DNA of 64,000 bases from an uncultured Pseudomonadota bacterium (GTDB taxonomy: Bacteria; Myxococcota_A; Bradymonadia; Bradymonadales; Bradymonadaceae), in contig CAJXPB010000005.1 in the NCBI GenBank assembly GCA_913057905.1, positions 186,001 to 250,000 of the forward strand, read 5' to 3'. The notes beneath the pieces were generated by a model that was not told the origin of the DNA, ran no database searches, and was given only the letters and a program-made list of their open reading frames with translations. Shown in pieces: positions 45,629 to 53,340 of this stretch. Position 1 is the stretch's first letter, and every line of letters begins with the position of its first letter. The position numbers were made by a program, and so were the translations under genes.

Positions 45629-46054
45629 ATGGTACGGGACGGTGACGACAGCGGGTATCGCGAACTCGACCACACTGCCGATCGACGGATCGAGGTGTGG
45701 GGGCCGGACCTGGCGAGCCTGCTGGCGGCGGCTTCGCGGGGGATGTACTCGATCTGCGATCCCGAGACCGACCCTTCGACGCGAGTGACCAAAGACTTTC
45801 GGCTCGAAGCGTCCGACCGGGCGACCCTGCTGGTCGAGTTCCTCTCGGAACTGCTGTATCGTCTCGAAGTCGACTCGACTCTCTTCGATGCGTTCGAATT
45901 CGACTTCGGAGACGGTGTCGCAGACTGCCGGGCGTCCGGAGTTCGCGTCGTCGGACTCTCCGACGAGATCAAGGCCGTCACCTGGGAGGACGTCTTCGTC
46001 GAGGAGGAGCCGCAGTCGGGCGTCGTCCGAGGAGCCGTGACATTCGATATCTGA
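45629..46054 (+). CDS. Archease (RtcB activator)
   Basis: A 141-residue protein with the archease hallmarks: the opening [27 protein letters not shown], metal-binding Asp/His in [19 protein letters not shown], and [14 protein letters not shown] near the end. Archease speeds guanylylation of the RNA ligase RtcB and broadens its nucleotide use. The rtcB gene begins 37 bp downstream on the same strand, the expected partner. Confidence 0.96.
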
Positions 46055-46091
46055 TCCGAGTCAACACTTGGAACCTCAGAAAGGAGCGACG

Positions 46092-47543
46092 ATGTTCAAC
46101 ATCGATTCCCTCGTCAAAATCAGCGGCTGGGAGTGGGAGATACCCGTCTCTCACCGGCCTGACATGCAGGTTCCGGTTCGGATCTTTGCGACCCGGACTC
46201 TGCTCGAACAGATCCAGGAGGACCGATCGCTCGAGCAGGCCGTCAACTCCGCCACGTTGCCCGGGCTGGTCGGTCAGGTCATCGTCATGCCCGATATGCA
46301 CCAGGGATATGGCTTTCCGATCGGCGGCGTGGCCGCCACACGGTATCCGACCGGTGTCGTCTCGCCGGGGGCTATCGGCTACGACATCAACTGCGGGGTG
46401 CGACTGTTGGCGTCGCAGGTCCCCTACGAGCAGGCGGAGCCGCTGCTCGACAAACTCGCCGACGCATTGGAACGCCGTTGCCCCGCCGGCGTGGGGGTCG
46501 GTGGAAAGCTGAGTCTGTCATCGGACCAGCTCCGAGAGGTCGCCGAGCGCGGGGCCCGGTGGGCGCTGGATGAAGGGATGGCCACAGAAGACGACCTTGC
46601 GCGAACCGAGGAGGGCGGTTGCCTCGACGGCGCCGACACGGATGCCGTCAGCCAACGGGCCACCGAACGCGGGCGAGATCAGGTCGGTACCCTCGGGTCC
46701 GGAAACCATTTTCTGGAGGTCGAGCGCGTCGACGAGATCTATGACTCGGAGGCCGCCGAGGCGATGGGCCTCCGCGAGGATATGCTCACCATCATGATCC
46801 ATACCGGCTCCCGCGGGTACGGCCACCAGATTTGCACCGAGTACACCAACAGTTTTCAGAACGTGATGAAGGAGTACGGGATCGAGTTACCCGACCGCCA
46901 ACTCGCCTGTGCTCCCATGGACTCGCCGGAGGGTGAGAACTATCTGCGGGCTATGCGATGTGCTGCCAACTTCGCGTTCACGAACCGTCAGGTGCTGACG
47001 GATCTGGCGCGCTCGGGGTTCGAAGAGACCTTTGCGGGGCAATTCGACGACCTCGACCTCCGGCAGGTCTACGACGTGGCCCACAACATGGGCAAGATCG
47101 AGGAACACACCATCGACGGCGAGACTCAGAAGGTCTGCGTCCACCGAAAAGGCGCCACGCGAGCCTTCGGCCCCGGTCACGCCGACCTGCCCGACGACTA
47201 CCGCGACATCGGTCAACCGGTCATCATTCCGGGCAGCATGGGCACGGCCTCCTGGGTACTGAAGGGGACCGCCGAGAGCATGACTCGAACCTTCGGGTCG
47301 ACCGCCCATGGCGCCGGACGCACGATGAGCCGGCGACAGGCCAAAGAGGAAGTGTGGGGCGAGGACCTGGCCGATACCCTCGAGCGGCGCGGCATCCGCG
47401 TGCGTGCCAAATCCTTCGCCGGTCTCGCCGAAGAGGCCCCGCTGGCTTACAAGGATGTCGACGGCGTCGTCGATACGATCGGCCACTCGAAAATCGCCGG
47501 GAAGGTGGCTCGGCTGGAGCCCGTCGCCGTCATCAAGGGATAG
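46092..47543 (+). CDS. rtcB: RNA-splicing ligase RtcB
   Basis: A 483-residue GTP- and Mn-dependent ligase joining 2',3'-cyclic phosphate and 5'-OH RNA ends. ATG 46092 follows AAAGGAG; an upstream in-frame TTG would add eight residues. Metal and catalytic motifs are complete: [24 protein letters not shown] (Cys101), [29 protein letters not shown], and the guanylylated His406 in TAHGAGR. Length matches the family. It serves RNA repair and possibly tRNA maintenance; no tRNA genes or cyclase (rtcA) are near. Confidence 0.97.
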
Positions 47544-51615: not shown

Positions 51616-53340
51616 GTGACCGAAGAGAACCCACAAGTCGACCGTATCGAATGCCCCGGTTGCGGGGAGCTGTACCGATTTCGGCCCCGGGAGGGGTATC
51701 CGACGCCCGCGTCGGTTCCGTGTCCCGTCTGTCCGGCGCGGATCCCGGTGGGCGGTCCTCGGTCCCGCAACTGGGTCGAGACGACCCATGCCGAGGTCTT
51801 CGGCCGGGCTCCGACACCCGCTCCCGTTCCCGAAGAGGAGTCCGTCGAAACGGCTCCCGCCGCATCGGCTCCCGCTGCATCTGGAGAGGTAGACTCCACG
51901 GACGAGCGGACGCGGGAAGAGGGCCCGTCCAAGCCGGCCCGCCGCGCCTTGGTGGGAATCTCGGCCTGGTGGGTCGTCTTCGGGTTTCTCATCGGAGGGG
52001 CCGCCGCCGCAGGGGTCTTTGTCTGGCTGGACCGCACCGAGGAACCTACGCCTCGAGCCAGGGCAGAGGCCCCGGTCGAATCGCCCGACACCGGCTCGGA
52101 GTCTTCGGCTTCGAGGTCCGATGAAAAGGCGTCGCAGGGTGCGGCCGCCCGCCCCGAAACACCAAAACCGCCCAGTCCGGACGAGGTCCGCACCGCCGTA
52201 GATGCGGCCAAGAAGCGGGTTCGCGCTGCTCCCGACGAACTCGGCTACATCACGTCATTGTTGGAGGTCGACCACTACGGACCGGCGCGAACCCGGGCCC
52301 TCGACGTACTGACCGCGTCTGGGGTCGGTTCGAATCGTGAGGCCGCCGATCTGTACCGACGGTCGGTGCGGCAAGACCCCGCCTTCGACCGGCGCATGCT
52401 CACGCTCGGCGAAGACGTCGACATCGGTGCGATTCACAGCCTCGGTGGCGGATGGTCGATATCGTTTCGCATGACCTATCGTGGCCGGACCCGGTATGCC
52501 TTCAAGCCGATGCAGAAAAACTGGACCGAGGGATGGCGCGCCGAGATCGCCAGCGACCGGCTGTGTCAGGTGTTGCCCTGCGGGTTCGACATACCGCGGA
52601 ATCGGCCCGCCAAGATCCGCCGAGACCGCTTCGAGAAGCTCTATCGAAAGGTCTGGGACGAAGACCAAAAGGAGTACGCCGAGCGGTTCGACGACCTCGT
52701 CTGGACCACCGAAATCGGCGACGACGGTCAGGAGCACGAATATCTGTACGGGACCCTCAAGGACTGGGTCCCCGATTTCGTCCGCTGGCCCCTGGAATAC
52801 ACGACGGTCTGGGAACCCTGGCTCGATGCACGCCAGCCTCCGTCGGTGCTCGATCAGCCACTCGAAGAGGCCTTGGCCCCGTTCAAAGACAAGGGTACCG
52901 CGCCGTTTTACCGGCGCATCGTCTCACAGCGAGGCGACGCGACGACGCGCTCGATGGCGCGGCAATTGTCGAATATTCTGGTCTTCGATTTTCTGGTCTC
53001 GAACTGGGATCGATTCAGCACGGCCACCCAGTACTACGGGGTCAACAACCAGTTCGCCGACGGGCGGTTCGTCTCGATCGACAACGGGGCGGCCTTTCCG
53101 ACCATCCACTTTCCCGACGTGCGCGAGCGCCTCTCGCCAGTCAGCCGGTTCAGTCGGCGGATGATCACCGCCATCAGGGCGCTGAATCCCGAGACGTTGA
53201 ATCCGGTACTGTTTCCCAATCCATCGATCGACGAGCGGGCGCGTCTGGAGGTCTTCTGGAGTCAGCGAGACCGCCTGCTCGACCGCATGCGCACCCTGGT
53301 GTCCACCCACGGCCGTGACGCCGTCTACGCCTTCGAATAG
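51616..53340 (+). CDS. Membrane protein with FAM20/CotH-like atypical kinase domain
   Basis: A 574-residue protein starting at GTG. A zinc ribbon (Cys13, Cys16, Cys36, Cys39) is followed by a Pro/Glu-rich linker, one helix (about 111-138) and a second disordered linker to about 190. The C-terminal domain has the residue pattern of the FAM20C / Four-jointed / HipA-like kinase fold: Lys297 in RYAFKPMQ, Glu310 in AEIASDRL, Asp465 in VSNWDRFST and Asp489 in SIDNGAAFP. Basic residues before the helix predict that the kinase domain lies outside the inner membrane. Kinase activity is inferred from motifs only; a non-enzymatic relative is possible. Confidence 0.65.
   Translation: MTEENPQVDRIECPGCGELYRFRPREGYPTPASVPCPVCPARIPVGGPRSRNWVETTHAEVFGRAPTPAPVPEEESVETAPAASAPAASGEVDSTDERTREEGPSKPARRALVGISAWWVVFGFLIGGAAAAGVFVWLDRTEEPTPRARAEAPVESPDTGSESSASRSDEKASQGAAARPETPKPPSPDEVRTAVDAAKKRVRAAPDELGYITSLLEVDHYGPARTRALDVLTASGVGSNREAADLYRRSVRQDPAFDRRMLTLGEDVDIGAIHSLGGGWSISFRMTYRGRTRYAFKPMQKNWTEGWRAEIASDRLCQVLPCGFDIPRNRPAKIRRDRFEKLYRKVWDEDQKEYAERFDDLVWTTEIGDDGQEHEYLYGTLKDWVPDFVRWPLEYTTVWEPWLDARQPPSVLDQPLEEALAPFKDKGTAPFYRRIVSQRGDATTRSMARQLSNILVFDFLVSNWDRFSTATQYYGVNNQFADGRFVSIDNGAAFPTIHFPDVRERLSPVSRFSRRMITAIRALNPETLNPVLFPNPSIDERARLEVFWSQRDRLLDRMRTLVSTHGRDAVYAFE

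Follow-up and report, generated by a model that had tools for sequence, protein, structure and literature searches.

Phosphorylation outside the cytosol has been studied mainly in animals, in which Fam20C is the Golgi casein kinase and phosphorylates secreted proteins at S-x-E, and Fam20B is a xylosylkinase. Fam20C is controlled there by the pseudokinase Fam20A, which has Gln at the position of an extra Glu of Fam20 that matters for activity (Glu213 of ceFam20, five residues before the canonical ion-pair Glu, Glu218), and animal Fam20 proteins carry four conserved disulphides (PMC5865150). The word 'bacteria' is absent from that paper, which deals with Fam20 evolution. Within the Legionella, human and amoeba data set of another survey, FAM20 was specific to eukaryotes or to Metazoa, and four Legionella families clustered with the FAM20/CotH group (PMC9758233); CotH itself has been described as resembling Fam20C (PMC12189002). 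Beyond such remarks on CotH and Legionella, our full-text literature search returned no paper on bacterial Fam20 homologues, a result which does not establish their absence from print.

Here we describe a kinase of this kind encoded in a stretch of 64,000 nucleotides (the window), part of a 4.25 Mb assembly of an uncultured bacterium of the family Bradymonadaceae. Our computational analysis demonstrates its homology to Fam20, its fold, the conservation of four catalytic residues and the conserved pairing of an active with a degenerate copy; from the evidence given below, we also infer its topology and export. Two results, the occurrence of relatives across Myxococcota and the active/degenerate pair in the window's family, are new with respect to a first-pass annotation that had been made from the DNA letters. 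Overall, we think it probable that the protein is a kinase of the Fam20 superfamily that is exported and stays anchored in the inner membrane, where it would face the periplasm and phosphorylate envelope proteins or glycans, with a regulatory paralogue at its side.

The open reading frame was recovered exactly where the first-pass annotation had placed it (Table 1), and a chance frame is ruled out because matches are present in 24 of the 26 genomes of the order. From N to C terminus, a zinc ribbon is joined through a Pro/Glu-rich linker to a hydrophobic helix, and another linker then leads to a short helical segment ahead of the kinase domain. The earlier description of a zinc ribbon on a membrane protein agrees with what we see, namely two CxxC pairs (starting at residues 13 and 36) and one hydrophobic segment, located near residue 120 by a hydropathy scan. 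In a Pfam scan Zn_ribbon_4 matched the window protein at E=0.012, which is under its cut-off, and most of the full-length homologues likewise carry the two CxxC pairs.

Table 1. Features of the kinase gene and its predicted product, with positions counted from the first letter of the window.
Feature	Position	Strand	Basis or remark
Fam20-type kinase gene	51616..53340	+	574 aa; GTG start at 51616, stop at 53340; orthologues across the order
Zinc ribbon near the N-terminus (roughly residues 13-40; CxxC at 13-16 and 36-39)	51652..51735	+	Sequence; sub-threshold Zn_ribbon_4 match; recurrence in homologues
Single transmembrane helix (about residues 120-138), N-terminal flank basic	51973..52029	+	Hydropathy scan
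Portion predicted to be extracytoplasmic, residues 185-574 (kinase domain after a short stretch of helix)	52168..53337	+	AlphaFold2; Fam20 best match
Lys297 of FKPMQ	52504..52506	+	Invariant in 19/19 orthologue rows
Glu305, matching in position the extra Fam20 Glu (Glu213 of ceFam20)	52528..52530	+	Position table; variable among orthologues
Glu310, ion-pair Glu	52543..52545	+	Invariant, 19/19
Cys317-x4-Cys322, sole cysteines past the helix; possible disulphide	52564..52581	+	Both in 18/19 group A rows
Asp465 of NWDR, predicted catalytic base	53008..53010	+	Invariant in 19/19 orthologue and 40/40 distant rows
Asp489 of IDNG, predicted metal ligand	53080..53082	+	Invariant in 19/19 orthologue and 40/40 distant rows

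The relation to Fam20 was assessed by running three profiles against the sequences of the PDB: one of 18 orthologue rows, one of 39 rows led by the window protein, and one of 23 rows led by L118, a distant relative from Myxococcaceae. The 23-row profile brought all six PDB Fam20 sequences to the top, for instance human FAM20C (4.7e-23), zebrafish Fam20C (6.5e-20), FAM20A (1.1e-14), worm Fam20 (4.8e-11) and hydra Fam20 (1.4e-10), and the next protein was PI4KII with an E-value of 0.27. At the level of sequence, the relation to Fam20 is one of homology beyond a shared fold. The 39-row profile reached FAM20C at 1.8e-16, and L118 alone reached FAM20A at 2.9e-8 in a single-sequence phmmer search. 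With the 18-row orthologue profile the Fam20 sequences were again on top, weakly so (E 0.008-0.11), and the window protein by itself, run against the PDB, gave three chance matches and no Fam20; it is the broader profiles only that are decisive for the assignment. In Pfam, PF06702 (Fam20C) scored 17.3 bits on the window protein, below the curated cut-off of 26.8, and 30.0 bits, above the cut-off, on the distant relative L108. Across the class, 57 genomes were scanned and none held a match above the cut-off of this Pfam family, so that these Fam20-type kinases would probably escape standard annotation. When 39 members were scanned at E<=0.1, Fam20C was matched by 22 of them, FAM198 by six, HipA_2 by one (E 0.0072) and PI3_PI4_kinase by one, and CotH was absent among the 13 Pfam families matched. 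An NCBIfam search of the window protein returned a chance match only.

Structure prediction gave a high-confidence kinase-like model of residues 185-574 (AlphaFold2; pLDDT 94.8, pTM 0.91), which bears out the kinase fold proposed earlier. In Foldseek the model matched just eight PDB chains at E<=0.001, all of them Fam20 or PI4KII, and in VIA-align nine Fam20 entries led with Z scores of 17.6-18.6 over 260-281 aligned residues, followed at lower scores by PI4KII (14.8-15.9 over 223-235 residues) and CtkA (14.7-15.1). The model of L118 (pLDDT 88.1, first 32 residues unstructured) is nearer to Fam20 than that of the window protein: nine Fam20 entries, aligned over 256-265 residues at 18-26% identity, score 21.6-22.8, and PI4KII scores 16.9-17.9. 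The affinity to secretory-pathway kinases that the first-pass annotation had seen in the motifs is therefore upheld by the model together with the profile-to-sequence homology. Of the families it had named for comparison, Fam20 holds, whereas CotH and HipA do not hold as the nearest relative: against a Z score of up to 18.6 for Fam20, CotH reaches 12.0-12.2, with the lack of any CotH match among the 39 members, and HipA reaches 10.1-11.4 (10-12 for HipA/HipT), with HipA_2 in a single member.

The structural rank of PI4KII, next after Fam20 and fourth in Foldseek, raises the alternative of a PI4KII-type lipid kinase, whose target would be the head group of a lipid exposed on the outer side of the inner membrane. 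We regard this as very improbable, given that the profiles reach Fam20 at 1e-16 to 1e-23 and PI4KII at 0.27-0.48 (23-row and 39-row profiles), that Fam20 aligns over more residues, and that many relatives resemble lipoproteins or soluble exported proteins.

The catalytic pattern was found at the residue numbers given by the first-pass annotation, with Lys297, Glu310, Asp465 and Asp489 lying in FKP, AEIA, NWDR and IDNG. Invariant in the window protein and its 18 orthologues (19/19) are K297, E310, D458, N463, D465, R466, D489 and N490; these 19 rows constitute group A, from which two contig-end fragments were left out (L049 from G020 and L050 from G016). Among 40 distant rows, hand-picked as one per genome from a listing of 108 matching genomes, E310, D465 and D489 are kept in all 40 and K297 in 38, the other two having Arg. 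Some deviations were seen in the pattern-found set: L098 and L099, two lipoprotein-like relatives that come from metagenome bins, retain the K and both D residues and have Gly at the ion-pair Glu (E310), and in L111 K297 is replaced by Arg and E310 by Asp. Non-classical kinase-fold families can have other chemistries (PMC10870513), and an AMPylation or glutamylation enzyme like SelO or SidJ would thus be conceivable; with the full K/E/D/D set kept and a nearest characterised family that transfers phosphate, we give this reading very little credence.

Several features set the substrate site apart from that of animal Fam20B and Fam20C. In the numbering of PMC5865150, E310 aligns with Glu218 of ceFam20 and E305 with Glu213, and the latter position is acidic in 11 of the 19 orthologue rows and 7 of the 40 distant ones. 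The same paper reports, in the K-beta10/K-alpha9 loop, Lys in animal Fam20B and Arg in Fam20C, a position which, by our own reading of the FAM20C alignment, we equate with the residue after DNG. The window protein has Ala there (DNGA; the orthologue rows read DNGA or DNSA in 18/19 and DNST in 1/19), and it has DRF where animal Fam20 has DRH, as DRF or DRY is found in most rows. The sugar-contact residues of Fam20B are therefore not all kept, which argues against a Fam20B-like glycan kinase whose target would be an envelope sugar (LPS, exopolysaccharide, peptidoglycan or glycoprotein) and not a protein. Such an enzyme, which we hold to be possible but on balance unlikely, would on the other hand fit several observations: hydra Fam20, a glycan kinase, shares first place with Fam20C among the structural matches; the Fam20C loop motif Clash1, reported to hinder sugar binding, is not seen between K297 and E310 of the window protein; the Cys-containing Clash2 motif is absent, the kinase domain having two cysteines only; and the xylosylkinase activity of Fam20B is reported to be older in animals than the protein kinase activity of Fam20C (PMC5865150).

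The placement of the kinase domain outside the inner membrane, as the first-pass annotation had it, with the zinc ribbon inside, is well supported but not proven, since it draws on a charge bias, a cysteine pattern and a moderate enrichment of export signals. Among the Bradymonadales rows, 40 have a predicted helix; its N-terminal flank is more positive than the C-terminal one in 34 of them (N-in bias, as expected if the N-terminus is cytoplasmic), and 35 of the 40 have exactly two cysteines in the several hundred residues past the helix. The single group A row without the Cys317/Cys322 pair, L045, has neither residue, and the degenerate paralogues described below (group B) have both in 21 of 23 rows, the other two not being aligned there. 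The paired loss in L045 is in keeping with a disulphide formed where the environment is oxidising, and we consider a bond between Cys317 and Cys322 possible.

Distant relatives are mostly devoid of both the zinc ribbon (by a CxxC scan) and the long linker, and their kinase domain is preceded by a helix or by a signal of the lipobox, Sec or Tat-like kind. Three rules for detecting such signals were tried. A strict lipobox rule found 7/40 relatives against 16/226 control ORFs (p=0.06) and overlooked obvious lipoproteins; a loose hydrophobic-core rule was undiscriminating (37/40 against 128/226); and an intermediate rule, the third, found 23/40 against 72/226 (p=0.0037, uncorrected for the choice among three rules), with most of the 17 relatives that it missed showing a signal by eye. 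Taken together, these counts suggest a moderate enrichment of export signals over control ORFs. We know of no pathway that supplies ATP to the bacterial periplasm, and this problem would be solved by a cytoplasmic kinase using ordinary ATP, with the helix inverted or not in the membrane and the zinc ribbon outside, an arrangement to which the 6/40 rows without the N-in charge bias could also be accommodated. The bias of the other rows, the cysteine pattern and the apparent export signals of distant relatives, among them lipoboxes and signals of twin-arginine-like type, lead us to consider that arrangement improbable.

The window's genome contains exactly two copies of the kinase. The second (L051), an open frame of 912 aa with 38% identity and the same layout, has Leu in place of K297, Ala in place of E310, Gly in place of D465 and Arg in place of D489. 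In all 21 genomes of the window's family an active-type copy (group A) is accompanied by at least one group B copy, the presence of group A in G016 and G020 resting on the contig-end fragments. In a quick tree, group B is a separate clade of 23 rows (SH-aLRT 98), with L074 and L076, from the other family of the order, left out; the placement of the B rows of G001, G005, G006 and G009 is less sure because of long or uncertain branches. All four catalytic residues are kept in 19/19 group A rows and 0/23 group B rows, two of the latter being gapped at K297/E310. At D465, group B has Glu in 10 rows, Asp in five, Asn in four, Gly in two and other residues in two; at D489, His is found in 12, Asp in three and other residues in eight. 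Nevertheless the dead copy is maintained, at least in one genus, as its kinase-domain dN/dS there (0.061-0.095) is like that of group A (0.072-0.088), and this demonstrates computationally that the paralogue is under purifying selection in that genus. By analogy with Fam20A and Fam20C, the paralogue most likely serves the kinase as a regulatory partner, and a physical pairing of the two would be our guess. Group B loci of other genera have recurrent neighbours, namely a DUF72 gene at 14/20 loci, a GATase1-like membrane protein at 11/20 and a Tat-exported DUF4159 protein at 10/20; in the window's genome, the group B copy has none of these three beside it.

The first-pass annotation had called this kind of kinase rare in bacteria, which fails for Myxococcota because a profile search found relatives in 115 of 377 genomes of that group (93/235 among good-quality ones). 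Beyond Myxococcota, coverage comes from one scan of genome contigs with patterns taken from the window's own group. Viral contigs and plasmids gave no match to the kinase family, and a mobile element was ruled out on this ground. We also observed a Polyangiaceae protein with a lipobox-like N-terminus in which a Fam20-like kinase domain and an FGE-sulfatase domain (PF03781, E=6.9e-9) are fused (L096:5939-8077 and L184).

In comparison with the window, conservation of the genes around the active kinase ends at the genus, and an operon-based function was rejected, as none of the window's neighbours recurs beside the kinase in other genera. A POT transporter and two amidohydrolases recur beside it only in G003, of the same genus. 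These adjacent amidohydrolase genes (PF07969/PF01979; 55288-58151, +), near the kinase only within the genus, overlap by a few bases. Two genes before the kinase lies a rhomboid-family protease (PF01694; 48280-50499, +) with long N- and C-terminal extensions, and further features of the window include, at 45629-47543 (+), a small archease-like ORF followed directly by an RtcB RNA ligase gene (PF01139).

In the reading that we favour, the zinc ribbon would lie in the cytoplasm, one helix would span the inner membrane, and the kinase domain would face the periplasm. There, using a divalent metal, it would most likely pass the phosphate of a nucleotide on to hydroxyl groups on envelope proteins or glycans. 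Lys297 and Glu310 would place the nucleotide, Asp465 would serve as the base, and Asp489 would sit on the metal. Nucleotide phosphate as donor and envelope hydroxyls as substrate are guesses of ours, and the same applies to a role of the zinc ribbon in docking or sensing on the cytoplasmic side and to a Fam20A-like regulation of the kinase by the degenerate paralogue. A bolder, joint reading would see in Bradymonadaceae a periplasmic Fam20C/Fam20A-like system, in which a dedicated pseudokinase would allosterically control the kinase and zinc ribbons would tie both to the cytoplasm, and in the exported Myxococcota kinases a prokaryotic equivalent of the animal secretory-pathway kinases and perhaps their origin. 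Cultured bradymonads have been described as predators (PMC7460792, PMC11509652), and in this joint reading the kinase of such a predator could use ATP from lysed prey. As a whole we find it doubtful, and put it forward tentatively. If true, exported Fam20 homologues and an active/dead pair would offer a prokaryotic system for kinase action where ATP is scarce, and the pair would bear on how pseudokinase activation evolves. Furthermore, bacterial Fam20 homologues bear on the origin of the animal Fam20 kinases.

Several known systems resemble the one described here to differing degrees. The CotH spore-coat kinase and HipA/HipT have a kinase-like fold in common with it, and no antitoxin gene of the kind to be sought for HipA/HipT was identified adjoining the window kinase. 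PI4KII shares the fold, as the second-best structural match to the window model, whereas the sequence similarity is not significant (E 0.27-0.48). The likeness to Fam20A is that of a degenerate paralogue retained with an active kinase, here in 21/21 genomes of the window's family; while Fam20A has Gln at the Glu213 position, the bacterial paralogue is mostly without D465 and D489. With Fam20C and Fam20B the bacterial protein has a homologous kinase domain and the FKP, AEIA, DR and DNG motifs in common, and these enzymes are non-cytosolic in animals, as is predicted for the bacterial kinase. Unlike them, it adds a membrane anchor and, in its predicted topology, a cytoplasmic zinc ribbon; it has neither DRH nor a Lys or Arg after DNG, its extra Glu is variable, and the four disulphides of animal Fam20 are impossible in a kinase domain with two cysteines only. 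Judged from these sequence comparisons, the bacterial kinase is not an orthologue of Fam20A, Fam20B or Fam20C, but a member of the Fam20 superfamily with a specificity of its own.
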